Assembly (NCBI GenBank): GCA_030591525.1
Contig: JAUVAV010000018.1
Location: forward strand, 1-57,787
Reading direction: 5' to 3'
DNA length: 57,787 nucleotides
Source: a candidate division FCPU426 bacterium
GTDB taxonomy: Bacteria; Oederibacteriota; JAAXVQ01; JAUVAV01
A program made the translations under genes and the position numbers. Below, one piece after another: positions 1 to 14,959 of the stretch (positions are counted from its first letter, which is position 1; each line of letters begins with the position of its first letter). Under the pieces are notes generated by a model. The model was not told the DNA's origin and searched no databases. It saw nothing but the letters and a program-made list of their open reading frames with translations.

Positions 1-184
1 CATCTTTCCTGGTACGCTGATAAGTCTCTTTAGCCTGCTTGATCTTTTGAAGATAACGATGGAGTAAATACAAGTAAGTACCCAAGACCAGGATGTCGTC
101 CAGCAGGCCGGGATAGAGGTCAAGCGGCAGAACCAGGTAGAGTACAACTATAATTAACCATAAATAATTTTGAAATTTTGACAT
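1..184 (-). CDS. DUF1232-type small membrane protein (partial)
   Basis: The reading frame starts at 184 on the minus strand and runs off the window edge, so only the first 61 codons are visible. The start is preceded by a GAGGA ribosome-binding site. The visible part has a short polar N-terminus, then a hydrophobic stretch containing PLDLYPGLLDDILVLG. This matches the PLDxxPxxxDD signature of the DUF1232 (YkvA-like) family, small membrane proteins without a settled function. It is transcribed divergently from the giant gene at 497. The C-terminus cannot be judged. Confidence 0.6.
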   Translation of the reverse strand, partial: MSKFQNYLWLIIVVLYLVLPLDLYPGLLDDILVLGTYLYLLHRYLQKIKQAKETYQRTRKD

Positions 185-496
185 GCTTAAGTTTCCTCGC
201 GTTGCTGAGCTAAAGGCCGGAGAGATTTAATAATGTTATTATAAAAACGGGAAAAAATCAATAATTAAGCCCCTCCGGTTAATAGGCCTCTTGTCAAAAG
301 CTGTTTTAAAGAAAATCCACTAAAACAGCAACTTCTCACCCGCCGTGGCGTTTCAAAACAAAACACAGAGCATATAACAGGCTTATATCAAATATTATCG
401 GAGGCGTGGAGGTATCTTTGTTGGTGTTTATGTGATATATTATAAATATATCATTTTTTTTGGGGGATAAGAGTTTAATGAAAAAGGTCCTAGCGA
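185..496. other. Non-coding divergent intergenic region
   Basis: These 312 bases separate two divergently transcribed genes and hold no convincing coding frame. The sequence is AT-rich and should contain promoters in both directions. The only distinct structure is the dyad and promoter-like element near 418-461, listed separately. A 10-codon reading frame (478-507) overlaps the start of the giant gene. Confidence 0.6.
418..461 (+). promoter_or_regulatory. Candidate promoter with AT dyad ahead of giant gene
   Basis: TTGTTG at 418-423 is followed after 17 bases by TATAAA at 441-446, a plausible sigma70-type pair with a weak -35. The -10 lies inside a perfect dyad, TGATATAT (433-440) and ATATATCA (446-453), followed by eight T residues. 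The dyad could be an operator that overlaps the -10 or only an AT-rich structure. A GGGGGA motif follows at 462-467. Confidence 0.35.
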
Positions 497-3400
497 ATGA
501 AATCTAAAGCTGTAGTTTTCTTAATAATATATAGTTTTGTGCTCCCCTCTTTAACTTGGGCATTTGATACATGCAATTATCAAAGTTCTCAACTATCATT
601 TTCTCCAGTTTATTATTTAGGAAGCAGAATCGCCATACCGAAAAAAGCCGGTCTTTTTAAGGCTGGATTCCAGGGTGGGAAAAAAACTATTATTTATATT
701 GAAGACCTGCATTGCAATTACGAAGTGCAAAGAAACATCGCAAGCATGATTGGTTATTTGGCAAAACGACATGGGTTGAAACTCGTAGGAGTGGAAGGCG
801 CCTTTGGTGCGCTTGATCCTGCGGTGATCCGCGAATTTCCCGTTAGAAAAACCCGCGAAGCAGTGAGCGATTATTTTGTCAAACAGGGAAAACTGAGCGG
901 CGCAGAACACATTGCGATTACCGGGAATAGGCGTATTCAAGTAACGGGGATAGAGCCGCCGGAATTATATCAGGCCAGTCTCAAAGCTGTAAAAAGCTTT
1001 TTAAACGCGGAAAGCCAGGGATATGTATATGACCTGCGAGATGTCTTAAATGAGTTAAAGCACGGAATTTACAATCCTCGGCTATTGGAATTTGACAAAA
1101 AACGCCGGCTGTATTGCGAAGGAAAAACAGCGCTCATAAAATACGCGGGTTATTTAAAGTCTAAGGCAGACGCATGGCAGGAAGATATAAACAAATATCC
1201 CGGACTGACGCGTTTTCTTGATTTGCGGCAGGAGTATTTCACCCGGGACAGCCGGCCGGAAAAAATTTATCAGGAACTTGATGGTTTGGAGATAGCGATC
1301 CGGAGGCATTATTATACCAGCAAGGAACAGCAGCTATTGGATAGTTTATACCGCCGCCTGGAGATCATAGAAAAACTATTAAATATATCGGCCACGCCGG
1401 AAGAACTGGAGCGGATTCGGTCAACGCCGGAAAATTATACTGTACGGAAATATGTTGGATTCATCCGGGGCCGGCAACCTAAGCACGCAGCATCGCTCGG
1501 AGCAGAGATATACGCGCTGGATGAATATATAAGCCAGGCAAAAGCCTTCTATGCCATGGCAGATGAGCGCAGCCGGCATTTTGTGCGCCAGATGATACAG
1601 AAAATAGAAAATTCGCAACAAAGCCTGGGAGTAATGATCTGCGGCGGATTTCACACCGATAAAATACTGGAGGAGATGCAGCGTCAGCGCGTTTCATATG
1701 TGGCAATAAAACCAGGGTTGACCCGCCAGGATATTATAAATCCTTATTTTCGGCTCTTGCAAAACAGAGCAGCGCCTTTAGAAGAATTATTAAAACAGAA
1801 CCAGACCGTTTTAGCGCTGCGCGCGGCTCTGGAAAATCCGGTCCAGCGCATGGAAATGGAACTCGTTTTAAAATCCCTGGCCCATACCCTAAAGCTTAAT
1901 CAGAAGCAGCAGACAGAAATGGCCGGTTATTTTAAAGCCCATAACCGGGTAAAGGTGGGATTACTTAGCCCGGCAGAGGCAAAAGCTAAAGGCTTGCCGG
2001 AGCTTACGCCGGTAAAAGTTCTGCCGACATCATTGCGAAGGGACGGTGAGCAGGCGGTGGTTCTTATTGCGCCGCAGGGCATGCTTACGGAAAAAACAAA
2101 CCAACAGATTACACCGGTGGATTCCAAGCAAATTGATAAGCATAGCATAAATGTCTATTTTTCTTTGCGGAAAGCCCTGGACGCCGCCCATATCATCCGG
2201 CAAAACCAAAAACCAATAATTGCTTCTATTATTAGGGTATTTACAGCGTTGCAAACAGGATTATTACATGCTGGCCGGGGAGTATATTTGCGGGGCAAAT
2301 TTAATCAAAGACTGATTAACGCTGCCTTGCCCATGGGATATCTGGTTCTGATAGGGCTGGTATTGACAGAGATGAAAGCCGGCCGTGATACTGGAAAAAC
2401 AGAGCAGGAAGAGTTACGCGAAATCCAAGATGATTTAATGGAAATCCGGGAGATATTTAGCGCGGAGAACTATTCTCAGATTGAACCGGAAAAAGTTGAG
2501 GGGTTAATTGCAAGGATAAAAACCGCTATTGAAAACAGGGATAATCCGGATATGCTTTCCTGTTATTACACGGCTAAAGTTATGCTAAAGGTAGCGAAAT
2601 TCCACGCTGACATGTTTGGAAAAACCGGAGGTAAAAATTCCGTACAAATATTAGCCATGAGTGCCGATATGCAAAAAGTCCTATTGCAACGGAGGGGACC
2701 GTATAAGCGTCTATTTGCCGATAAGTACACTGTCTCAGCTAATGCCAAACCGAAGCCGGGACAATCAATTATAGAAGAAGCCGCCCAGGCGCTGGGAGAA
2801 GAAGTTGGCATTGAGGCGGAGGCTAACCGTTTCCGGCAGATTGGCAAAAGCAATAGTTATCATAATAAATTAAGCAGTTATGATTTTTATGCTTTTAATC
2901 AGGATGAAGAAAACAAGCTGGTCAAGGCGTATGACGAGTTAAAAAAGAAGCACTCTTCAGTTAAAGGAAGATTAATTGATTATAGTCATGAAAAACGCTG
3001 CTTATGTGTTTATTCAATAAACCCGGAGATAAAACAGGATGCGGTAAAAGAGCTGGCCGGCCAAATACAGAAAGATACCGATGTTCCATACATTTATCCG
3101 GTGGCCGATGATGATTACAATACCTTGTTAGTTTATCAGCTTACTAAAGAGGAAGAAGATAAAATTAGGCAGAACGCGCAAGCCCGGGACATCGAAAATG
3201 AGGATTATTTAAAAATTCTGGATTCTGATAAGATGGAATTTGTCTCCTGGGCCGAACTGCACAGAGATTTTTCTGAAAATCCTAAAAAATACGCGCTGGA
3301 TTTAACCGGGCCCTATTTTGGGAACACTGAAGTATGGTCTGAGATTCTGCCCGACACCATACATGCCGGTGATCCCTTGGCCGAAAAGGTCTCTGTCTCG

Positions 3401-6400
3401 GGCGGCAAAGGCGCTAATACGAATATTTTGCTCGGATTAAGAGGACAAATTCCCGGATTAAATGTCCCTGACACCTCGATATTAACTACCTTTGCTTATG
3501 AAAGATATGTTTTGGGCGTTCCAGCAATACGGAAAGATGTAAAATTATTGGATGAGGCCAAAGAAGAGAAAGACATAATAATCATATCAGAAAGAATTAG
3601 AGATCAGATTCTGGAAATTGAATTACCTAAAAACGTAAAACACAATATTAATAGTATTTTCGAAAATCTGGGACGCGATATCATAGTTCGAAGTTCGTCA
3701 AATGTTGAAGACTTAGAGGATTTAAACGCTGCAGGCGAGGCAGAATCATTTCCGCATATCATAGAGGGAGAAGAAGCGCCGAAGAAAGTGCTTGAAGTGT
3801 GGGCCAGTCTTTTCTCTGATGGATTTGTAGCCTACCGGACCAGCAACAATATTAAACACCAAGACGCGAGTATGGCGGTACTGCTGCAGGAATATATTTC
3901 ACCCCAGGCCGCGGGAGTGGTTTTTTCCCAGCACCCGGGAACTAAACGGCCGGTTTACTTAATTACCGGCAATCCAGGGGGCGGCGAAATCGTGGTGGAC
4001 GGAAAAGGACAAACGGACAGCTGGCTGGTGGGTTTAAACGGGACTGAGATTTTAGAAAGGTGGATTAAGACAAAGAAGTTTAAGCGAGTGGAATCAAAGG
4101 AAGGGGGGACGCGGGTAGAAAAAATCGAGATGAAGGAGCCGGCTTTAGGGGATAAGGAGATATTAAAGCTCAGCCAGGTAGTTAAATCAATACATAATCA
4201 TTATCGTGAAAAGGATTTGGTGCAGGACATAGACATTGAGTATGTTTTTGATAATCAGGGCGAGGTGTACATTGTGCAGGCGCGTTCGCAAAGTTCCAGT
4301 GACGTGGAAGCGCAAGAGGGTTCAGTAACCCATAAATTTAAGACAGTAGATGAATCAAAAGTGCCGGATGGTACGCCTCGGATTATTTTTCCTTCCGGTT
4401 CGCAGACCGCCTATACCGGCGCAGTTACAGGGGAATTGCAAATCATACTTAAAAAGGGGCCGAAAAAGGGGCCGAAAAAGGGGCCGAAAAAGGGGCCGAA
4501 AGGAGGGCCGACAAGCGCAAGGCCGGACGCGATAGTGGTTGCTTACCACACAAATAATGAGTGGAATAGCATTTTTGCCAAATTAAAAGGAGTAATTACA
4601 ACTGATGGCAGTGTAACTTCACATGCCGGAGCGCATGCGCAGGAAAAAATGATTCCCTGCATGGTGGGCGCAACAGGCGCAATGGAACAACTGAAAAAAT
4701 TTGACGGCAAGATGGTGACGTTTGATTCGGGAAAAAGAACGGTTTATTTAGGAGAGTGGCCTATTATAAAACAGGAGAGACGTCTCGATATGTGGGTTAC
4801 TGATCCAGAGAAATGGAAAAAAACAGAGGCACAGCTGAGAGATCATGAGCTTTTCCGGAAATGGGAAGAGAGTATGGAAAAGCGTCCCAAAGTATATTTG
4901 AAGGACTTTGAAGGGCAGTGGCGCCGCCATTCCAATTATTACCCTTACTTTGAACTGGATTATTATTATAAAGCCTGGGATTGTTTAACCGGGATTTTAA
5001 ATAATAAATTCAGTAAGCGCCGGTCTTGGAAGTTAAAAACCCAGGAGCGTGAATTTAAAATTAAAACCCGGCGCTGCTTCTTTCATCGGGTAGAGGTTAA
5101 TGATCCAAAGAGTATTTATGGTTTTATTAACGGCGTGGAGAAGATAGATCTTGAGGATAGGCAGGAACTTTTCGATATGCGTTGGCAAGGATTCAGGAAA
5201 ATGGCGTGTTTTATGGAAGAGATTGAGAATATTGATAACGACAATGTCGAAGCACTGATAGATAACCTGATTGAAGTATTCGCGTGGATGCATATGGGAT
5301 TCTGGCTGGATGCTATAGTAGAAAACACGGTGGTTAATGATCAGTTGAAATATATTGATAAAGAGTTCCATAATGTTTTAAGGAATGTGGCGGTGGAGGA
5401 TTTGCCGCGCGAGGAGAGGATACATCCTTACCGTGCGGATATCCCGGGAGGAAAGGTTCTGAATCTGACGAGCAATAAAGACAAGGAGATATACGCTCTT
5501 TTAGAACGTATCCGCAGCGACGCCCGGCTCGTGGAAATATTCTCTAATGGCGGTAGTGAAGAGATTAAGAGAGAATTGAAAAACAATTTTAAGAAAATTT
5601 ATACTACGATAGAAGATAGGTCTATGAAATATAAAAGCACAAGCGAAGATATAAGGATTCTTTCAGATACAGATGAGTATATAAAAGACATACAGGGGAG
5701 GCTGAAGGGGGGCGATGAAGCGGGCATATACTTATTGGCCAACTTTTGCAGGCGTTATCAAGCAGAAGACACAAAAAGATCATTACAGTTAGAAGAAATT
5801 AAGGAAAACGATAATGATTTGTATATGTTAATAACCGGCTATGCCCGCCGAATGGCCGCTGAAAAGAGCCAGGAAAACAAGTGGGAAGAAATTTCCTGGC
5901 AGGAGCGAGTCCAGGCATTGCTAAAAGTAACAGAGGAGGACCGGAAGGCCAAATTGCCTCTGGCTGTAGAAAAACTAAAAAAAGAGTTGGAAGCTACGCA
6001 GGAAATGCGGGAAACTGCAAAAAGCATGTTGGGCTCATTTCCGAGATTAAAGCAGACACTCGCGCTATCAAAAATGCAGATCGCTCTTCGAGAGGACGGG
6101 CACCATTTGGTGGTGCCGTTTCAGCGCAAAATTGCCCGCATGATGCTGGAAATAGCGGAGAACCATATTGCAATACTTGGAGAACCGGAAAACATATTTC
6201 AAATCAGCACAGATGAATTAATCGCCTTGGTTAAAGAGGAAAACCCTGATTATATCAGCAAAACGTTTGACCGCTGGGCAATATTGGATAAAGCTGAGGA
6301 AAAAATGAATTCCCAATGGAAGAAAAATCCCCGGGAAGCATTTGAGGAATTTAAAGGGGAGGTTAACCAAGCAATTGAAATATTGCGGGAGCAGGCGGAG

Positions 6401-8491
6401 CAGACAAAAACGTTGCGAGTGAAAGAATCATATCAAGCTGAGCAGAGCCGCCTGGAACATCGTATCAGACGACTCTACAGCGTGCTGCCTGACAAAAAAA
6501 ACGAGCGCGCACAAAAAGACAAACCAGGACCGGGAGAGGGCGGAGCCGGTGGGTTATTAAGCATGGTTGTGAAAAGCAGCGGGCTGATGACGTGGCTAAT
6601 AATGTGGAGCAAATCGGTATGGGGGCGATTATCGAACCGGATAGCCAATCGTCTGCTGCGGGAGATAACCTTAAAGCAACCAGTAAACGAGCTGGTAACA
6701 TTAAGAGCTCTTTTAGGCCAAGCGCGGGTAAATGCTCCGTTGTTTAAGCAGCACGTGCTGGGTGAAAATATTTACAAATATCAGGCAACCATCTTTGGAT
6801 CGAAATTCAACATGCTGGATAATGTCCGTATCCGGGTAGGAGCACTTTTTCGGACAGGGTTTGAAGAAAGACAGCCGGGCGCCATTGAAGTTACGGAAGA
6901 GCTGCAAGCTAAAGACGCGGTCTTTGTCATTACCATACCCGTCTGGTTTAGTAGTATTCTAAGGCCGGCGCCCGAAAAAGGGCTGCTGGCCAAACTCGAT
7001 TATTATCTGGTAAGCGGAATTGTCAGCCGGCAGGTGGGGCGTAAATTGCGGAGTTGCGCTCAAAGCTTGAGAAAGGCGACGGACGAGGAAGAGATATATG
7101 CGCAGGATTATTTTGGCAAAGAAATCCATCGTCTGCCGGTTAAAAAGCTGCCGGGATTTGGCGCGCCGCTTTTAGGCGCGGAATACTATCAACCGCGCGG
7201 CGGACGACAACTTGGCATAGCCGGAGCGGAGCTAGGAAAGCTGTTAGAGACATATCGTCAAGCGATCGATACCCAGGGAGGTAGTTTATGGGAAATAATC
7301 AAGCCCCAATTAGACAGCAGGCTTAAAGATGGACAGGTGCCCTCCAATGCGGAGCTGGTGCAAGCTTTGCTGCAAATAGATAAAGCCGGTATCAGGGATC
7401 CGCTGCTTTTACAGACCGTAACCCAGCTCGCGCAGGCAGTTCAGGCAGCCGGAGATTTGGGCCGGGACGAGCGTTTGCGGATTGAAGTTAACCATGTCGC
7501 GGACCTGATTATTCGAAGCCGCAAAGGCATGCCTATAGCAAGAGTAAACAGGCCAATTAGAGTGCCTATGAATGAAGCGGGATTAGATCAGGCTCACTTG
7601 CTGATTGATAAATTGACCCGTAAAGCAATGAAGCAAATGATCGTGGGTTTACAGGGGAAGGCGCAGGCGGGGACAATAATGCAGGAAAACCTGAGATTTC
7701 TGGCCGAGATTTTATCAAAAGCGGCGCTAAGTCCTGGGGAAAGCGCGCGTTTGCAAGCCATGCTTCAATGCGTGGCTATGCCGGAAGGACAAGTGGCAGT
7801 TGTGCCTATTGGCGAAGATGTTTCAAAGTATGCCGGCGGCATGGTAAACGGCAGGGTAAGCGTAGTGGAGAATATTATAGTTGACGGACAGAAAGTTGAA
7901 ATGGCAAAGCCTGTGATCGCGAGCGTACTGGCCAAGAACCGTGAGCTTCTGGAAGAGGTGGGAACATCAAGTGCGCAGGGAGAAGTTCGGGTGGTTTCTT
8001 ATCAGGGGAAATTGCCCGAGATGATGGAGGCACAAGGCAATTTTGCCGCGAACATAGGGTGCTATTTGGAAAAGGCCGGCTGTTTGCAGGAAAGAATGGC
8101 GCCAACCCAAGCTTTAGCGCAAGCGTATTACCATTGGCACGCGAAGAGGAGTAAAAGAAATCATCGCAGAATGGCTCGTGTAGTAATTCGCATATTAAAG
8201 CATGAAGCGCGCGCAGGGGGGAGGGATTCCAACCGTCAAGCAGCGTTTAATGAAGCCATGGAGAAAGTTAATATTCTATTCAGGGAATCCCCGATATTTA
8301 AAAAGAGCGTAATACTCGGCCGAATAGAAGAGGACATAATCCACGCACCAAGAAGCCTGGGTACTGGCGGACAATTAGGCTTTATTTGGCTCTGGCAGAA
8401 GCGATCTGGCGATTTTATCCTGGATAATAATCTGGAAGATCAATTAAGGCGCCTGCGTTTGCGCAATTTCCGAATGGAAGGCGCGGCATAA
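497..8491 (+). CDS. Giant secreted multidomain protein: ChaN/Tiki-like, Nudix-like and PEP-synthase-like modules
   Basis: A 2,664-residue protein. Residues 1-22 look like a Sec signal peptide. Residues about 60-420 resemble the ChaN/Tiki (EreA-like) fold, with EDLHCN (H72), GVEGAFG (98-104) and GGFHT (H386). Residues about 715-940 look like a Nudix domain, but the Nudix box (AAQALGEEVGI) lacks the usual Arg-Glu pair. Residues about 965-1265 match the ATP-grasp PEP/pyruvate-binding domain (SGGKGANT, IIVRSSSNVEDLED, QAR). A KKGP-rich linker (about 1319-1338) leads to a phosphohistidine swivel domain with the phosphorylatable His in TSHAG (H1376). No PEP-type TIM barrel follows. Residues about 1430-2000 are helical and charged, a hydrophobic patch lies near 2018-2060, and the last 600 residues are unrecognised. 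Giant genes of this kind are known in Omnitrophota. A phosphotransferase core behind a signal peptide is unexpected, so the function is open. The ribosome-binding site is weak (AAGGT). Confidence 0.85.
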   Translation: MKSKAVVFLIIYSFVLPSLTWAFDTCNYQSSQLSFSPVYYLGSRIAIPKKAGLFKAGFQGGKKTIIYIEDLHCNYEVQRNIASMIGYLAKRHGLKLVGVEGAFGALDPAVIREFPVRKTREAVSDYFVKQGKLSGAEHIAITGNRRIQVTGIEPPELYQASLKAVKSFLNAESQGYVYDLRDVLNELKHGIYNPRLLEFDKKRRLYCEGKTALIKYAGYLKSKADAWQEDINKYPGLTRFLDLRQEYFTRDSRPEKIYQELDGLEIAIRRHYYTSKEQQLLDSLYRRLEIIEKLLNISATPEELERIRSTPENYTVRKYVGFIRGRQPKHAASLGAEIYALDEYISQAKAFYAMADERSRHFVRQMIQKIENSQQSLGVMICGGFHTDKILEEMQRQRVSYVAIKPGLTRQDIINPYFRLLQNRAAPLEELLKQNQTVLALRAALENPVQRMEMELVLKSLAHTLKLNQKQQTEMAGYFKAHNRVKVGLLSPAEAKAKGLPELTPVKVLPTSLRRDGEQAVVLIAPQGMLTEKTNQQITPVDSKQIDKHSINVYFSLRKALDAAHIIRQNQKPIIASIIRVFTALQTGLLHAGRGVYLRGKFNQRLINAALPMGYLVLIGLVLTEMKAGRDTGKTEQEELREIQDDLMEIREIFSAENYSQIEPEKVEGLIARIKTAIENRDNPDMLSCYYTAKVMLKVAKFHADMFGKTGGKNSVQILAMSADMQKVLLQRRGPYKRLFADKYTVSANAKPKPGQSIIEEAAQALGEEVGIEAEANRFRQIGKSNSYHNKLSSYDFYAFNQDEENKLVKAYDELKKKHSSVKGRLIDYSHEKRCLCVYSINPEIKQDAVKELAGQIQKDTDVPYIYPVADDDYNTLLVYQLTKEEEDKIRQNAQARDIENEDYLKILDSDKMEFVSWAELHRDFSENPKKYALDLTGPYFGNTEVWSEILPDTIHAGDPLAEKVSVSGGKGANTNILLGLRGQIPGLNVPDTSILTTFAYERYVLGVPAIRKDVKLLDEAKEEKDIIIISERIRDQILEIELPKNVKHNINSIFENLGRDIIVRSSSNVEDLEDLNAAGEAESFPHIIEGEEAPKKVLEVWASLFSDGFVAYRTSNNIKHQDASMAVLLQEYISPQAAGVVFSQHPGTKRPVYLITGNPGGGEIVVDGKGQTDSWLVGLNGTEILERWIKTKKFKRVESKEGGTRVEKIEMKEPALGDKEILKLSQVVKSIHNHYREKDLVQDIDIEYVFDNQGEVYIVQARSQSSSDVEAQEGSVTHKFKTVDESKVPDGTPRIIFPSGSQTAYTGAVTGELQIILKKGPKKGPKKGPKKGPKGGPTSARPDAIVVAYHTNNEWNSIFAKLKGVITTDGSVTSHAGAHAQEKMIPCMVGATGAMEQLKKFDGKMVTFDSGKRTVYLGEWPIIKQERRLDMWVTDPEKWKKTEAQLRDHELFRKWEESMEKRPKVYLKDFEGQWRRHSNYYPYFELDYYYKAWDCLTGILNNKFSKRRSWKLKTQEREFKIKTRRCFFHRVEVNDPKSIYGFINGVEKIDLEDRQELFDMRWQGFRKMACFMEEIENIDNDNVEALIDNLIEVFAWMHMGFWLDAIVENTVVNDQLKYIDKEFHNVLRNVAVEDLPREERIHPYRADIPGGKVLNLTSNKDKEIYALLERIRSDARLVEIFSNGGSEEIKRELKNNFKKIYTTIEDRSMKYKSTSEDIRILSDTDEYIKDIQGRLKGGDEAGIYLLANFCRRYQAEDTKRSLQLEEIKENDNDLYMLITGYARRMAAEKSQENKWEEISWQERVQALLKVTEEDRKAKLPLAVEKLKKELEATQEMRETAKSMLGSFPRLKQTLALSKMQIALREDGHHLVVPFQRKIARMMLEIAENHIAILGEPENIFQISTDELIALVKEENPDYISKTFDRWAILDKAEEKMNSQWKKNPREAFEEFKGEVNQAIEILREQAEQTKTLRVKESYQAEQSRLEHRIRRLYSVLPDKKNERAQKDKPGPGEGGAGGLLSMVVKSSGLMTWLIMWSKSVWGRLSNRIANRLLREITLKQPVNELVTLRALLGQARVNAPLFKQHVLGENIYKYQATIFGSKFNMLDNVRIRVGALFRTGFEERQPGAIEVTEELQAKDAVFVITIPVWFSSILRPAPEKGLLAKLDYYLVSGIVSRQVGRKLRSCAQSLRKATDEEEIYAQDYFGKEIHRLPVKKLPGFGAPLLGAEYYQPRGGRQLGIAGAELGKLLETYRQAIDTQGGSLWEIIKPQLDSRLKDGQVPSNAELVQALLQIDKAGIRDPLLLQTVTQLAQAVQAAGDLGRDERLRIEVNHVADLIIRSRKGMPIARVNRPIRVPMNEAGLDQAHLLIDKLTRKAMKQMIVGLQGKAQAGTIMQENLRFLAEILSKAALSPGESARLQAMLQCVAMPEGQVAVVPIGEDVSKYAGGMVNGRVSVVENIIVDGQKVEMAKPVIASVLAKNRELLEEVGTSSAQGEVRVVSYQGKLPEMMEAQGNFAANIGCYLEKAGCLQERMAPTQALAQAYYHWHAKRSKRNHRRMARVVIRILKHEARAGGRDSNRQAAFNEAMEKVNILFRESPIFKKSVILGRIEEDIIHAPRSLGTGGQLGFIWLWQKRSGDFILDNNLEDQLRRLRLRNFRMEGAA
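4451..4510 (+). repeat. 12-bp coding tandem repeat (KKGP linker)
   Basis: Four exact copies of AAAAAGGGGCCG occupy 4451-4498 and a fifth, diverged copy 4499-4510. The unit is a whole number of codons, so copy-number changes keep the frame. It encodes a lysine/glycine/proline linker between the ATP-grasp and phosphohistidine domains of the giant protein. Confidence 0.9.
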
Positions 8492-8510
8492 AAAGCCTCT
8501 CGCCATTGAC

Positions 8511-8550
8511 GGCTTATTCAGAATATAGCTGAAGGCCGGGACGTTTTTTT
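8511..8550 (+). terminator. Possible intrinsic terminator after the giant gene
   Basis: An imperfect stem of GGCTT..TTCAG against CTGAAGGCC (8511-8537, about nine pairs with a two-base bulge) is followed six bases later by seven T residues (8544-8550). The distance between stem and T-run is longer than ideal, so the call is weak. It lies in the 166-base gap before the Bat genes. Confidence 0.35.
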
Positions 8551-8657
8551 CTCTCTTTTTAGTTGTCCTATTATCCCAGGCTTTGAGATAATCAATTTAA
8601 ATCCGTAACATTCCATACAGTCGATAAATTTTACCTGCCGGAAAGAAAAGGGGCCGC

Positions 8658-10451
8658 ATGTTTCGCTTTGCCAACCCGGAAGTGCTTTATTTACTGGGGC
8701 TTTGGCCTATATTAATAATAGGATGGTGGTGGGCGGACCGCCGGGCCCGCCAACGCCTGCATGACTTTGCCGAGCTGCGTTTAGCCGCGCAACTGACGTC
8801 TGGAAACAGCCGGGGCAAGCGTTTTATCAGCCACCTGGCATTGCTGTTGGCGCTTACCGGTTTGATCTTTAGTTTGGCCCGGCCCCAGGCAGCGCTGACC
8901 CGTTCTGAAGTTAAAAGGCATGGGTTGGATATTTTATTTCTGGTGGATAACTCGCGTTCCATGGAGGCGCGGGATATCAAGCCCAGCCGCCTGGGACGAA
9001 CCCAACAGGCCTTGTTTTACCTAGTGGATCGTCTATCGGAAAATCGGATGGGCTTGGTGCAGTTTGCCGGAGTTTCCTTTGTGCAGTGTCCCTTGACCCA
9101 GGACATTGCGGCCTTGAAATTGCTGATTGATACTATGGATACCAGGAGCCTGCCAATCGGAGGCTCGGATTTGGGCAGCGCTGTATATCAGGCGCTGGAA
9201 GCTTTTCAGCGGACCGGCGCGCAACACCGGGTTATGGTGATTATCAGCGACGGCGAGAATTTCGGCAAAATACCTTTCCGGCGATTAAAGCAGGCCGTCA
9301 GCCGGGGAGTTAGAGTCTATTGCTTAGGCGCAGGAACCCCGGCAGGGGAAGTAGTTCCCGGACAACCATTAACCAGCACTGTTCCCCGGACCCGGCTGAA
9401 TCAGGAATTATTAAAACGGCTGGCTAAAATGGGCAAAGGAACCTATGCCCGTCTTTCGCCGGGGCAACGGGAGGTTGACGGGCTGATTAAAGAACTAAAG
9501 CGTCTGGAGCGTATGGAGTTGTTCTCGGAACGCTGTCAAATCTGGAAAGAATATTATATCTGGCCCCTGGCCGCGGTACTGGGCTTGCTGTGGTTTGAGC
9601 TGTTATGGGGAAGACGCCGGGGATTTAATTGGGCAGGGGTCAGCCGTTTTTTCAAGAGAACCGGTAAGGCCGCGATAATAATAATGTTGTGCTGGGGCAT
9701 GGCTGTCCCCGGGGCCCGGGCATCTGCCGGACGCCTGGTTAAAAAAGGCATGGCAGCGTTTAAGCAAAATGATTTGATACGGGCGGAACAAAGTTTTGAT
9801 CAGGCCAGGAAAAACAAACCTGGGGATCCCCTGGCAGAATATGATAGGGGCTGCGTTTTACTGGCGCAGTATAAATATTGTAAAGCCTACCAGGCCTTTG
9901 TCAGGGCAAGCCGCAAAGCCCAGGGAACTTTATGGAAGGATTGCCGGTATAATCTCGGCTATGCGGCATTTAACCTTGGGATTAAACAAGCAACCAAAGA
10001 ACGCTGGCGGGAGGCAGCGGAAGCTTTTAAGCAGGTACTACTTTTAGATTCCGGAGACCAGGATGCGCGGTATAACCTGGAATTAATCCTGCGGGAGATA
10101 AAAGGGCGGACTACGAGCACGGCCCGGCGGGAAGAGGAAACCCAAGGGAGCAAGCAGGGAAGAGATCCCGGCAGTGGAGCGGATAAACCGGGCTGGGACC
10201 GGGTTCGTACCCCGGGCCGGGAAAATAAGCAGGCTAATCCCGGAGAGGAGCAGGTTAGAACTACCCAGCGCCGGAATAAGGGAAACCGGGCCAAAACCTC
10301 GGAAGATAAACATGGAAAGCGGCGGCCCGGCATGTCCCGCGAAGATGCCATGCGTACGCTGCGTTCACTGGAGGCCGAGGAAAGCATGATTCAAAAGAAA
10401 GCGGCACATAGCAATACTGAAGAAAGCGGTTATCAAGGCCCGGACTGGTAA
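8658..10451 (+). CDS. BatB-BatC fusion: membrane VWA protein with C-terminal TPRs
   Basis: A 597-residue inner-membrane protein. Hydrophobic segments lie at about 7-25 and 57-75, followed by a von Willebrand A domain (about 90-290) with an intact MIDAS motif DNSRS (D97, S99, S101). A further membrane segment near 300-315 and a hydrophobic stretch near 337-352 precede TPR-like repeats (about 360-475) and a low-complexity basic tail. N-terminal membrane helices plus VWA are typical of BatA/BatB, and the TPR tail is typical of BatC, so the two are fused here. Bat proteins are linked to aerotolerance and envelope stress. The neighbour four bases downstream combines BatD and BatE. No MoxR ATPase or DUF58 gene, the usual upstream partners, precedes it. 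Confidence 0.88.
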   Translation: MFRFANPEVLYLLGLWPILIIGWWWADRRARQRLHDFAELRLAAQLTSGNSRGKRFISHLALLLALTGLIFSLARPQAALTRSEVKRHGLDILFLVDNSRSMEARDIKPSRLGRTQQALFYLVDRLSENRMGLVQFAGVSFVQCPLTQDIAALKLLIDTMDTRSLPIGGSDLGSAVYQALEAFQRTGAQHRVMVIISDGENFGKIPFRRLKQAVSRGVRVYCLGAGTPAGEVVPGQPLTSTVPRTRLNQELLKRLAKMGKGTYARLSPGQREVDGLIKELKRLERMELFSERCQIWKEYYIWPLAAVLGLLWFELLWGRRRGFNWAGVSRFFKRTGKAAIIIMLCWGMAVPGARASAGRLVKKGMAAFKQNDLIRAEQSFDQARKNKPGDPLAEYDRGCVLLAQYKYCKAYQAFVRASRKAQGTLWKDCRYNLGYAAFNLGIKQATKERWREAAEAFKQVLLLDSGDQDARYNLELILREIKGRTTSTARREEETQGSKQGRDPGSGADKPGWDRVRTPGRENKQANPGEEQVRTTQRRNKGNRAKTSEDKHGKRRPGMSREDAMRTLRSLEAEESMIQKKAAHSNTEESGYQGPDW

Positions 10452-10455
10452 AGTT

Positions 10456-13290
10456 ATGCGAATTTTATTAATCAGCGTAGTAATGGTTGGGACCGCGGCT
10501 TTAAGCGCCGGCCTGGTCCGGGCGGAAACAGAATATCAGGACGAAGAATTAATCACAGAACCGGTTTGGGAGACCCCCGGAGGGAAAACAGAGCCGGTAT
10601 TGCCGACAGTTATGCCCGTTCCGGCAGATCCCGATAAACGGCCAGGCAAAAAAAGATATTGTCTTTCCTCAGGAGCCGGGAGTGCCGCCGCCGGCCGCCC
10701 GTCCTCCGGGCATAAGCAGGCGGGAGAGCCGGATTTTGGGGATGAAGAGCTAATGACCGAACCGTTATGGGAAAGCGGGAAGGCCGGCGAAGACCAGGCT
10801 GAATCTCTGCGTTCTTTTACGGCCCGGCTTGATCGACGCAAGGCGCATTTGGATGAAAGTTTTACCCTAACGCTGGAAATAATAGCTCCGGAACTCAAGA
10901 AAATATCCTCCTGGGGACAGCCGCTTTTACCGGAATTTGATACCATTAATACTTATCAATCCGATACTATGACTAATTTGGATGGCCGGATATGGAAAGT
11001 GCGTACTAAACAGACGGTTTTTCTGGCCCGCCAACCCGGAACATACAATATTCCACCGGTGAAAGTCCGCTACCGTGGGCAGTGGTACCGGACGCAGGAA
11101 CTGAAAATTACTATTGAAGCATCGCGTTCCGGATACGTTTATCAACGACGCGGATTGGGACGGAAGTATAATCGCAAAGCCGTTAAATCCTCTGCTCCGG
11201 AGACTGAGCAGGTAGGCGGTCAAGAACCTGATTTTACAGCCAACATCTCCCGCCAGGAGGTCTATGTCAATCAACAATTAATTTTAACCGTCAGGTGGCA
11301 TTACCGCGCCGGTGATAAGACGAAGATTAATTATCAAACGCCGAGCATGACCGGTTTTCTGATAGAACCTCTGCCCCAGCGTAAGACCGAGGAAAGGACG
11401 TCAGGTGTCAGTCAACGCTATGTGGGACGCGTTTATCAGACCGCGCTTTTTCCGGTGAGGGCCGGGACCCTGGCGATCGATCCAGCCAGGTTAACTTTAA
11501 CGGAGCAGGGTAAAACCAGAGCGTATACAACTGAACCCCTGACAGTGGCAGTAAAACCGTTGCCCGTGGATCCTGCGCCTCTAAGGAGTGGAACCGGAAA
11601 TGGATTAGTAGGGAACTATGAGCTGCAAGCTGTATGGGAAGCCGGCCGGACCGAAGTGGAAATCCCCGTTCGTTTAAAAGTGAAGCTAAGCGGCCGGGGC
11701 AATGTACGTACGGCGCCGGCTCCTTTCCTGAGCGAAGATACCCATTACCGCCTGTATCTGGAAGAAAAAAGCGAGCAGATCAGCCGGGCGGGCGGCCGGT
11801 TGGAAGGCCAACGAACCTACTGTTATCAAGTAATATTTCATTCTCCGGGAAGGGGACGTTTAAACCAGGCGGTCATGCGATACTTCGATCCAGAACAGCA
11901 GCAATGGCGCTCCGCCATAGCCCGGATTCCGGAAATTGAGGTCTTGCCGCTCTCGCAGGTTCAAGTATCCGGCGGGGAAAGCTGCCGGCCGCCGGCCTTA
12001 AATTTAAAACCCAACCGCAGCCTTCCTGTCCGGCTCCGGCCCAGCCGGCCTCTCATGGTGGAGAGCAGGCTCTTCTGGCTGATACAGGCTATGGGCCTGG
12101 GAGTAATTCTACTGGTATGGGGAGGCCAACACTTATATAGCCGGTCACAGCCTGATCCCAAGGTTTTGCGCATTCGACGCGCCTATCCTAAAGCCAGGCG
12201 CTCATTACGGCAACTCCGGAAACATATCCGGCAGGGCCAGGTAGACAAGTTTTATACGGGCTTAACCAGGATTACTTCGGAATATCTGGCAGCCAGATTC
12301 GGACTCACGACCGCATATATAGGCGCAGAGCGGCTGCTGGAATTTTTTGAGCAATATAATATTCCGGCCCGCTTACGCTTGCGTTTTAAGGCCGCCTTGA
12401 CCGCTTGCGAGTACGTACGCTATGCCGCGGTAACCTTGCCGGCCAAGGATATGCGCCTGCTTCATCGTGATTTAAAGCGGGCCATACGGGAATTCGAAAA
12501 GATATGGCGAACGCATAAAAATAATCACGGACTCCGAAAAAAAGTTAATTTGGCCGTAATAATAACGCTTTTGACAATGGGGTCGGCATATGCCGGAGAG
12601 GCGGAAAAGCACTTTTTACGCGGAAATACCCTGGACCGGGAAGGCCGGTATCAGGAGGCAGAGGCCGCATACCGGAAAGTCCTGGCATGCAAAATCAAGC
12701 ATCCGGCGCTGTATTATAACCTGGGCAACGCCTATTTTCGGCAGGGGAAATTAGGCCCGGCGATCCTGGCTTATGAACGTGGATTACACCGGGCGCCCCG
12801 GAATCGGGATATAAAGTACAATCTTAAGCAGGCCGCGCGCTTGATCAAAGAAAGCGGCTTTAGCGGATCATGGTCCGGGTTTAAACAGTCTCTGATTTTT
12901 ATCTATCGCAGTTTTACGGTCAATGAATTGGCCGGGACAGCTTCGCTTAGTTATTTTCTTGCGCTAATAATCATTAGCCTGATAATATTATGGCCCGGAC
13001 GATTTCGCAAATGGCGCTTTTTATTATTGATTTTTATAATTATATTCCTGACAGCCGGCCTCTGGGCCGGAGCTCGGTATGGAGAGAGATACTGGTGGAA
13101 AAGGGCGGTGATCATGATCCCGGAAGTCAAGCTGTACGTCCGGCCTTATCGGGAGGCGGAAGCAATTTCCATATTAAGCGAAGGGATCCGCGTAGTAGTG
13201 CGGCGGGAGGAAGAAGCCTGGGTGGAAGTAAGGTTCGGCCGGCAGGGACACGGTTGGGTTCAGCGGAGCACCCTGGAGTTTATTCAATAA
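10456..13290 (+). CDS. BatD-BatE fusion: oxygen-tolerance-type protein with TPR and SH3-like tail
   Basis: A 944-residue protein starting four bases after the BatB-BatC stop. It has a signal peptide (about 1-23), then a linker with two copies of a DEEL(I/M)TEP(V/L)WE motif. The BatD-like beta-rich region (about 110-510) ends in a membrane helix near 545. A cytoplasmic helical region follows, then a second hydrophobic segment near 690 ending AYA. The rest resembles BatE: TPR repeats (about 705-790), two membrane helices (about 815-865) and a C-terminal SH3-like domain ending VQRSTLEFIQ. With the upstream gene it would supply BatB, C, D and E as two polypeptides. Domain names are from family resemblance; the fusion is seen directly. 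Confidence 0.85.
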   Translation: MRILLISVVMVGTAALSAGLVRAETEYQDEELITEPVWETPGGKTEPVLPTVMPVPADPDKRPGKKRYCLSSGAGSAAAGRPSSGHKQAGEPDFGDEELMTEPLWESGKAGEDQAESLRSFTARLDRRKAHLDESFTLTLEIIAPELKKISSWGQPLLPEFDTINTYQSDTMTNLDGRIWKVRTKQTVFLARQPGTYNIPPVKVRYRGQWYRTQELKITIEASRSGYVYQRRGLGRKYNRKAVKSSAPETEQVGGQEPDFTANISRQEVYVNQQLILTVRWHYRAGDKTKINYQTPSMTGFLIEPLPQRKTEERTSGVSQRYVGRVYQTALFPVRAGTLAIDPARLTLTEQGKTRAYTTEPLTVAVKPLPVDPAPLRSGTGNGLVGNYELQAVWEAGRTEVEIPVRLKVKLSGRGNVRTAPAPFLSEDTHYRLYLEEKSEQISRAGGRLEGQRTYCYQVIFHSPGRGRLNQAVMRYFDPEQQQWRSAIARIPEIEVLPLSQVQVSGGESCRPPALNLKPNRSLPVRLRPSRPLMVESRLFWLIQAMGLGVILLVWGGQHLYSRSQPDPKVLRIRRAYPKARRSLRQLRKHIRQGQVDKFYTGLTRITSEYLAARFGLTTAYIGAERLLEFFEQYNIPARLRLRFKAALTACEYVRYAAVTLPAKDMRLLHRDLKRAIREFEKIWRTHKNNHGLRKKVNLAVIITLLTMGSAYAGEAEKHFLRGNTLDREGRYQEAEAAYRKVLACKIKHPALYYNLGNAYFRQGKLGPAILAYERGLHRAPRNRDIKYNLKQAARLIKESGFSGSWSGFKQSLIFIYRSFTVNELAGTASLSYFLALIIISLIILWPGRFRKWRFLLLIFIIIFLTAGLWAGARYGERYWWKRAVIMIPEVKLYVRPYREAEAISILSEGIRVVVRREEEAWVEVRFGRQGHGWVQRSTLEFIQ

Positions 13291-13307
13291 CCAAAGGAGA
13301 GACAGAT

Positions 13308-13832
13308 ATGATCCGTGAGACAGAGAAAAAAGCATTAATGCCAGTGGCTGAGGCCATGGTGCTGGCGGCCGTTACCGCGCCTAAGGGCCGGGGTGAGGAT
13401 AATCTGGAAATAGCCATCCTGGAAAAAGAAGATATCCAGGCAGTTGGTGATGAGATGGAGCGCCTGGGCCAGAAAAAAAACGTTCCCTCATTTCTGCGCG
13501 ATGCCAGGAATATCAAGCATCACGCTGAACTGGCAGTATTAATCGGTACCTGTGTAAAACCGTTAAACCTGAAATATTGTGGGTTCTGCGGATTTGAAAA
13601 TTGTGCGGCCAACCAGGCGGCGGGAGCGGTCTGTGCCTTCAATACCGGAGACCTGGGAATCGCCATAGGGTCGGCGGTGGCAGTGGCGGCCAGCCGGCAT
13701 GCCGATAATCGCATTATGTATACTATGGGCATGGCGGCCTTGTCTTTGAAATTGCTGGGCGAAGGAGTCAAGATAGCCTATGGCATTCCCCTCTCGGCCG
13801 CTGGCAAAAATCCATTTTTTGACAGGAAGTGA
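13308..13832 (+). CDS. DUF2148 ferredoxin-domain protein
   Basis: A 174-residue soluble protein. The start at 13308 is chosen because AAAGGAGA lies nine bases upstream; the longer frame overlaps the Bat gene. Cysteines at YCGFCGFENC and a later AVC in the middle of the protein match the cysteine-rich core of DUF2148 proteins, predicted to bind an iron-sulfur cluster. The function of the family is unknown. It lies 17 bases after the BatD-BatE stop and could be cotranscribed. The glycine/alanine-rich C-terminus is well formed. Confidence 0.82.
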   Translation: MIRETEKKALMPVAEAMVLAAVTAPKGRGEDNLEIAILEKEDIQAVGDEMERLGQKKNVPSFLRDARNIKHHAELAVLIGTCVKPLNLKYCGFCGFENCAANQAAGAVCAFNTGDLGIAIGSAVAVAASRHADNRIMYTMGMAALSLKLLGEGVKIAYGIPLSAAGKNPFFDRK

Positions 13833-13842
13833 GTAATGAATC

Positions 13843-13952
13843 TCCCCGCAACAAGCTGGGGTATCTAACCTGATTTATTATTTGTAAAATCCCCCTAGCC
13901 CCCTTTTCCAAAGGGGGAACTCAATAAGGGAACCCCGTAACAAACTACGGGG
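13843..13952. repeat. Cluster of three hairpins between convergent genes
   Basis: The 137-base gap between convergent genes contains three stem-loops: CCCC/GGGG at 13843-13861, CCCCCTTT/AAAGGGGG at 13899-13917, and CCCCGTA/TACGGGG at 13933-13952. None has a strong T-run, but together they could stop transcription from both sides. The middle one resembles the C/G-rich segments near 57485. Confidence 0.5.
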
Positions 13953-13969
13953 AATTACAAGTTAAGCAA

Positions 13970-14959
13970 TTACAGTTCTTTTTCCGGAACGGCATCCTCT
14001 TCGGGGATTTGGCCGCTTAGGGGTTGGTTATTCAAGTAGGAATCCTCGGAAATATCCTGTTGTTGGTCGCGGGAATAACCAGGACATAAGCTGATATCAT
14101 TAAGCAGCATTTTGCTGTGCGCGACATCCACGGGATCGGTTTTCAAGCGATAAGGCAGGGAGAAGACCATGTTTAAAAGCTCCCGGCCTTTTTCGATATC
14201 ATTATCATCCTTTTTATTCAACCCCCGGGTAATCAGGCTGATGCCGTATTCTTTTGCAATCTCAATCCGGGTGGGATCCAGTTGAAAGGCTTTTTTACAG
14301 TAGTCCACCGACTTGTCGAGGTCGCCACTGATGCCGAAAATCAAGGTCAGCAGGAAAAAAGCGGGGCAGAGCCGGTAATAGGAGCCCAAGGCCAGATGAC
14401 TGGAAGCAAACAGATTTTCGCCGTTGGGAGTGGTATACTCGCAAGGGTATTGCAGGGATTTAAGCCAGTCTTGTTCGATTCCTTTAGCCATGAACAAACT
14501 ATAGATAATACCATTGGTCGTGGAGAGACGGGCATGCGCCAATCCGCGCATGAAATAACATTCTCCGCGGTGCGGGGCATGCTTTATACCCGCTTCCGCG
14601 ATTTTAGCCATCTGGTCGTAGGTGCGTTTTTTCAGGGCTTTTTCTTCGCTGATTTTAACGTTCAATTGCTCGGCTATTTCGTAATAATTAAGACACATCA
14701 GGGCATGGACCAATGAATCTTCGGGCTTGAATTTCAGCGCCAATTCGCAAGCTTTGAGTGATTTCACAAATTCGTATTTACCGAGATAATAATCAGCCAG
14801 GTTGAAATATTTATCATACTGGGTCTGGTTTTCCTGGACAGTCAGAGCGGAAGAGAGATTATCCCGGAGGCTTGATTCACTGAATGCGGCAGGGGAAGCC
14901 CAAAACAGTAAGGCGATTAGGGCGCTGCCGGAGAAAATTAATGATACAAATTTTTGCAT
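13970..14959 (-). CDS. Secreted TPR-repeat protein
   Basis: A 329-residue protein with a signal peptide (about 1-27, ending AAFS). The rest is helical, with TPR-like pairs such as the segment near residues 60-85 (YLGKYEFVKSLKACELALKF) and another at about 205-235 (GDLDKSVDYCKKAFQLDPTR). The last 40 residues are acidic and probably disordered. It is likely periplasmic. It starts 15 bases after the upstream minus-strand lipoprotein gene ends, suggesting one transcription unit. A TPR scaffold is a reasonable reading, but the partner is unknown. Confidence 0.75.
   Translation of the reverse strand: MQKFVSLIFSGSALIALLFWASPAAFSESSLRDNLSSALTVQENQTQYDKYFNLADYYLGKYEFVKSLKACELALKFKPEDSLVHALMCLNYYEIAEQLNVKISEEKALKKRTYDQMAKIAEAGIKHAPHRGECYFMRGLAHARLSTTNGIIYSLFMAKGIEQDWLKSLQYPCEYTTPNGENLFASSHLALGSYYRLCPAFFLLTLIFGISGDLDKSVDYCKKAFQLDPTRIEIAKEYGISLITRGLNKKDDNDIEKGRELLNMVFSLPYRLKTDPVDVAHSKMLLNDISLCPGYSRDQQQDISEDSYLNNQPLSGQIPEEDAVPEKEL

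Follow-up and report, generated by a model that had tools for sequence, protein, structure and literature searches.

Organization of the giant open reading frame

The window, that is the whole stretch of DNA analysed here, covers 57,787 nucleotides of a candidate division FCPU426 genome (contig JAUVAV010000018.1, assembly GCA_030591525.1). At positions 497-8491 of its forward strand lies a single unbroken open reading frame (ORF), which encodes a giant protein of 2664 residues and, on the same strand, all features described for it. From the N-terminus, the protein consists of a predicted signal peptide (residues 1-22, positions 497-562), an N-terminal module with an Ere/ChaN/TIKI-like fold (hereafter N-module; residues 23-445, positions 563-1831), a hydrophobic and possibly membrane-spanning segment (residues 607-625, positions 2315-2371), a conserved region that is weakly Nudix-like at residues 716-800 (residues 680-950, positions 2534-3346), an ATP-grasp domain of the PPDK_N family (residues 968-1274, positions 3398-4318), a phosphohistidine swivel domain of the PEP-utilizers family (residues 1343-1410, positions 4523-4726), a helical domain, called X, at the position of the PEP barrel (residues 1425-1998, positions 4769-6490), and a C-terminal domain (residues 2041-2664, positions 6617-8488) that is common to other giants with differing middles. 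Four further giants of the source genome (L010, L011, L014 and L018) have another common C-terminal region, at 20-27% identity, and likewise differ in their middles.

A short tandem repeat of KKGP, located in the linker that leads to the swivel domain (about residues 1319-1338, positions 4451-4510), is not present in the aligned homologues. The GC content is about 0.43 at window positions 1-6000 versus about 0.50 over most of the remaining window; judging from this contrast, the part comprising the N-module, the dikinase and X may be of a different origin. Directly downstream of the giant ORF, at positions 8658-13290, lie BatA/VWA and BatD/TPR genes, which have no established link to it.

The ATP-grasp and phosphohistidine core appears intact

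A preliminary description of the locus had placed a signal-like N-terminus before an ATP-grasp domain and a swivel domain with an active histidine, H1376, and this is borne out. Specifically, Pfam matches PPDK_N at an E-value of 8.5e-55 and PEP-utilizers at 1.4e-12, both over the curated cut-offs, and H1376 (codon at positions 4622-4624) lies within a TSHAG motif. Among PDB sequences, the protein matches rifampin phosphotransferase (RPH) and PEP synthase. The ATP-grasp K, R, D-x-E, Q and R and the swivel histidine of PEP synthase and pyruvate phosphate dikinase (PPDK) are all present, and K971, R1065, D1246, E1248, Q1261, R1263 and H1376 are kept in every Omnitrophota homologue that covers them (n=3), so that the loss of nucleotide-binding residues in relatives, which the preliminary description had named as the mark of an inactive core, is not seen. 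In line with this, most of these positions are near-invariant in ten relatives, one of which comes from a 23,032-residue frame. The core looks intact and is predicted to act as a nucleotide/phosphohistidine phosphotransferase.

The Nudix-like module proposed upstream of this core stands less firmly. The Pfam NUDIX match (E 0.048) is below the cut-off, and only the EExG part of the Nudix box GX5EX7REUXEEXGU is visible; the region is nevertheless conserved, being kept in the Omnitrophota homologues L197 and L198 despite the weak match.

The stretch that begins with the Nudix-like region and ends with X (residues ~680-1998) recurs at 39-41% identity in three of 384 Omnitrophota genomes, namely G412 (ORF of 2601 residues), G236 and G403 (split across two contigs), and this Omnitrophota version bears a separate signal peptide. 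A search with X across 45 genomes of the phylum of the source organism returns the window only. Two Firestonebacteria frames (L189 and L188; G007:C89 and C61) hold dikinase domains in reversed order, with the swivel domain before the ATP-grasp domain, that look glucan-water-dikinase-like by eye, and L189 carries the N-module. Additionally, a PPDK_N-like core lies within the 23,032-residue open frame (L203, G105:C6:560000-579000), with a weak X match at the same place (seen on L162).

A helical domain occupies the position of the PEP barrel

PEP synthase (EC 2.7.9.2, PDB 2ols) and PPDK share with the window protein the order of ATP-grasp and histidine domains as well as the catalytic residues, but they contain a PEP/pyruvate TIM barrel, whereas the window protein has none and is predicted to be exported. 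The absence of the barrel, already noted in the preliminary description, is upheld: Pfam gives no PEP-utilizers_C match in the giant protein, and an AlphaFold2 model of residues 957-2010 (ten sequences, mean pLDDT 73.7, pTM 0.47) is nearly all helix after the swivel domain and shows no beta/alpha barrel. Together, these two results speak strongly against a hidden PEP barrel in residues 1430-2000, the region in which one had been considered.

Searched with the same model, Foldseek places RPH first (E 1.1e-18, 993 columns), over the isolated RPH ATP domain and over PEP synthase 2ols. To judge by its length, this alignment probably pairs X with the rifampin-binding helical domain of RPH. At the profile level, X matches the distant giant L163 well (prob 97), a search of X against PDB sequences gives nothing useful, and the hhalign comparison of X with single RPH-like proteins is not significant. 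The comparison with RPH suggested at the outset gives a top structural match and no significant profile match, and as far as the model goes, X resembles the RPH helical domain in structure but not in sequence.

RPH from Listeria (PDB 5hv3, 5hv1 and 5fbs) likewise combines an ATP-grasp domain, a phosphohistidine swivel domain and a large helical domain. Unlike RPH, in which the order is ATP-grasp, helical, histidine and which is not part of an exported giant, the window protein has the order ATP-grasp, histidine, helical within a putatively exported protein of 2664 residues. X probably represents an acceptor domain of the RPH type that has shifted behind the swivel domain, and the repurposed module envisaged earlier would take this form, with a conserved helical domain in place of the barrel and located after rather than before the swivel domain. 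Because the barrel is missing and the order differs from that of RPH, we class the protein neither as PEP synthase nor as RPH. Its order of domains would represent a new arrangement for phosphohistidine dikinases.

A predicted signal peptide and the N-module head a set of giant proteins

The N-terminus of the giant protein is signal-like (MKSKAVVFLIIYSFVLPSLTWAFD), with the predicted signal peptide ending in LPSLTWA before the first F of the N-module. A signal-like segment is found at the same place in 81 of 82 distinct relatives, the end of the region is mostly conserved as PYLTWAF(E/D)-type, and K/R residues are commoner before than after the segment in 77 of 81 relatives, in keeping with a positive-inside charge. 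Given the strength of these features and their conservation, the signal peptide is predicted to be cleavable and the protein to be exported.

In the N-module, residues D70, H72, Q78, E100 and H386 are invariant in the alignments (D70, H72, E100 and H386 in 38 sequences). Its structure model (pLDDT 86.5) best matches the erythromycin esterase EreC in Foldseek (E 9e-4, prob 0.99), followed by the Ere-like 3b55 (prob 0.63) and more weakly by ChaN; the fold is Ere/ChaN/TIKI-like by the EreC probability, with a low TM-score of about 0.24. The module had been described as ChaN/Tiki-like, which holds at the level of the superfamily and less well for ChaN itself. It has in common with EreC (6xcs) and ChaN (2g5g) the fold and an invariant D-x-H, E and H, which are putative active-site residues. 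Unlike these proteins, it contains a large helical part, has no sequence match in Pfam or PDB by profile searches, and heads giant proteins.

In the source genome, the N-module (residues 1-445) heads 15 other large ORFs of ~1,100 to 6,600 residues at 29-49% identity, whose bodies are otherwise mostly dissimilar. The undescribed multienzyme of the preliminary description, while indeed without a described counterpart in the searchable literature, is therefore not a lone oddity but one among 16 such ORFs. The bodies of the giants in this genome match methyltransferase, nucleotidyltransferase, GH130, iPGM, alpha/beta hydrolase and TIM, and in 20 relatives the bodies give further matches to domains of cytosolic type, almost every one found a single time. 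One giant of the source genome (L015, C78) combines a signal, the N-module and hydrophobic segments with a GAPDH of archaeal type by motif, a degenerate PGK and two TIM copies. These TIM copies lie in tandem at about residues 2800-3375 and are circularly permuted, with the first strand (GNWK) after the last; the source genome also holds a normal standalone TIM, which is not permuted.

Among public genomes, the N-module is also found in FCPU426, Firestonebacteria, Goldiibacteriota and one further MAG, always heading a longer frame in the loci seen, and it is present in the MAG Proruminimicrobium quisquiliarum. In Omnitrophota, it is often a separate gene of ~530-590 residues and also occurs in frames of up to 10,472 residues. 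This shared export head, joined to the giant in some phyla and encoded beside it in another, offers a handle for recognising the class.

Signal-bearing glycolytic giants in Omnitrophota

At five Omnitrophota loci, an N-module gene is the immediate 5' neighbour of signal-bearing giant ORFs with glycolytic enzymes, which together comprise FBA, PFK, TIM, GAPDH, PGK, iPGM, enolase and PPDK. In G211 (L224, C39:1-20000, positions 3-14379), the N-module gene (552 residues) is followed by a signal-bearing FBA+PFK+GAPDH frame (1866 residues), a full PEP synthase with barrel (1387 residues) and a PGK+TIM frame (809 residues, cut by the contig end). In G198, it precedes PGK, GAPDH, TIM and enolase in a single frame of 2031 residues, and in G376 an aldolase ORF, a PEP-synthase-like ORF and a TIM+PGK ORF. 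In G062 (L201, C54, positions 2-9786), the next frame is signal-bearing, spans at least 2737 residues and contains PPDK, PGK, iPGM and enolase, and in G047 a signal-bearing ORF of 620 residues is followed by PGK within 2257 residues. Multi-enzyme glycolytic sets are present in L201, L221, L222 and L224, and the window has a PEP-synthase-type core without the barrel. The TIM copies of G198 and G376 have the same permutation as those of L015.

By eye, catalytic motifs are retained in the exported copies of enolase, PFK, PEP synthase, TIM and GAPDH, and the NAD loop of the GAPDH of G198 and G211 is without GFGRIGR. Most PGK motifs persist in G198, G047, G242 and G171, and those of L015 in the source genome, G376 and G062 are degenerate, which implies that activity need not be expected of every cargo enzyme. 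A normal standalone PGK is also present in all ten tested genomes with a giant-ORF PGK copy.

The link between the N-module and glycolysis depends on the direction in which it is followed. An N-module gene adjoins five of the seven exported glycolytic loci for which 5' sequence is available. On the other hand, when six Omnitrophota N-module genes are chosen regardless of glycolysis, the next gene has an N-terminal signal or hydrophobic segment in all six, and a recognised glycolytic gene is next door in none.

Proposed function and alternative explanations

We consider it fairly probable that the window protein is an exported ATP-grasp/phosphohistidine phosphotransferase with a helical acceptor domain, and one of a class of exported giant multienzymes. 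The ATP-grasp domain would charge H1376 from ATP with release of AMP and Pi, as in PEP synthase and RPH, and the swivel domain would then carry the phosphate from H1376 to an acceptor bound in X, which would be a small molecule or group rather than pyruvate in a PEP barrel. These activities are predicted from sequence. Across the class, the export signal and the N-module would go with giants carrying cytosolic-type, often glycolytic, enzymes, the module being fused to them in FCPU426, Firestonebacteria and Goldiibacteriota and mostly encoded as a separate gene in Omnitrophota. Enzymes dependent on ATP or NAD look intact in several members, and these uncultured bacteria would therefore need either an extracytoplasmic site that contains ATP or a route by which the giants enter other cells. 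A periplasm is not expected to hold ATP; the site of action may be an internal membrane-bound compartment of the producer, or a partner or prey cell. More tentatively, and with doubt somewhat outweighing confidence, we suggest that in Omnitrophota, FCPU426 and neighbouring candidate phyla a second set of glycolytic/gluconeogenic and related reactions takes place in such a compartment, or in another cell, catalysed by giant multienzymes exported with the Ere/ChaN-like N-module, and that the dikinase of the window is a derived member of this set.

Giant bacterial ORFs are known, while their jobs are not. In Omnitrophota, giant ORFs of more than 20 kb with few recognised domains have been reported together with a suggested symbiotic or predatory lifestyle (Seymour et al. 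2023, PMC10066038), and the passages of that paper compared here do not mention the shared N-module and exported glycolytic enzymes of the present giants. The nearest known idea is the targeting of glycolysis to organelles in eukaryotes, where fused or relocated glycolytic enzymes leave the cytosol by means of a targeting signal. Trypanosome glycosomes are one case of relocated glycolysis. Another is provided by the organelle-targeted TPI-GAPDH fusions of stramenopiles (PMC3527533, PMC6198282), from which the present giants differ in their bacterial export signals, longer fusions and permuted TIM. A literature search for signal peptides on glycolytic enzymes in these phyla or for periplasmic glycolysis returns no account, a weak result since subscription papers and preprints lay mostly outside it. 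The class of exported giants, in which related bacteria carry extra copies of glycolytic enzymes that are normally intracellular only, is apparently undescribed; within it, the window protein represents a variant form of phosphohistidine dikinase.

As a sub-case of the exported phosphotransferase, the giant could be a secreted effector delivered into the cytoplasm of a host or prey cell, whose ATP and metabolites it would use, a role we regard as somewhat unlikely. It would fit the cargo of sister giants, which suits a cytoplasm (SecA-like, HTH, protein kinase and cytidylate kinase domains), and the predation or parasitism proposed for Omnitrophota in the passages compared (PMC10066038); however, no delivery system is linked to the giants, and near-complete glycolysis sets would be unusual as effectors. 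A search for an ATP/ADP translocase gives no match and is uninformative, because the controls equally give none.

The preliminary description had also raised a membrane anchor with a cytoplasmic body, which we do not favour. In such an arrangement the N-module would lie outside, the segment at residues 607-625 would return the chain, and the dikinase body would serve in the cytoplasm, supplied with ATP as usual there, as a membrane-tethered sensor or metabolic enzyme. A second hydrophobic segment is indeed located between the N-module and the dikinase, and in 54 of 71 relatives of sufficient length such a segment occurs within 400 residues past the N-module, the first at a median of 170 residues. 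Yet where there is a single later segment, the flank charges favour N-in/C-out in 17 cases versus 1, opposite to a simple return of the body to the cytoplasm, for which they give no support. Moreover, in L197 and L198 the signal-like start is followed by the enzyme without any later membrane segment, as in most Omnitrophota glycolytic giants. Double crossing therefore appears unlikely, and it is the segment at residues 607-625 by which the body of the window protein beyond this point may still be cytoplasmic.

We likewise find it improbable that the protein is a structural giant in which domains were captured as foldable, non-catalytic blocks of an adhesin or coat. Adhesin or coat roles have been proposed for Omnitrophota giant ORFs in the passages compared (PMC10066038), the cargo is highly variable, some PGK copies have degenerate motifs and the Nudix match is weak; but every tested ATP-grasp and histidine residue of the window core is kept at about 40% identity across phyla, and exported glycolytic enzymes retain catalytic motifs as described above. 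Lastly, an ordinary PEP synthase with an unrecognised barrel is hardly credible, since PEP synthase is the best NCBIfam match but covers residues 963-1428 only, PEP-utilizers_C is unmatched, the model is helical, and the barrel is recognised without difficulty in those exported Omnitrophota dikinases that possess it. The source genome also holds a normal standalone PPDK of 956 residues without a signal.
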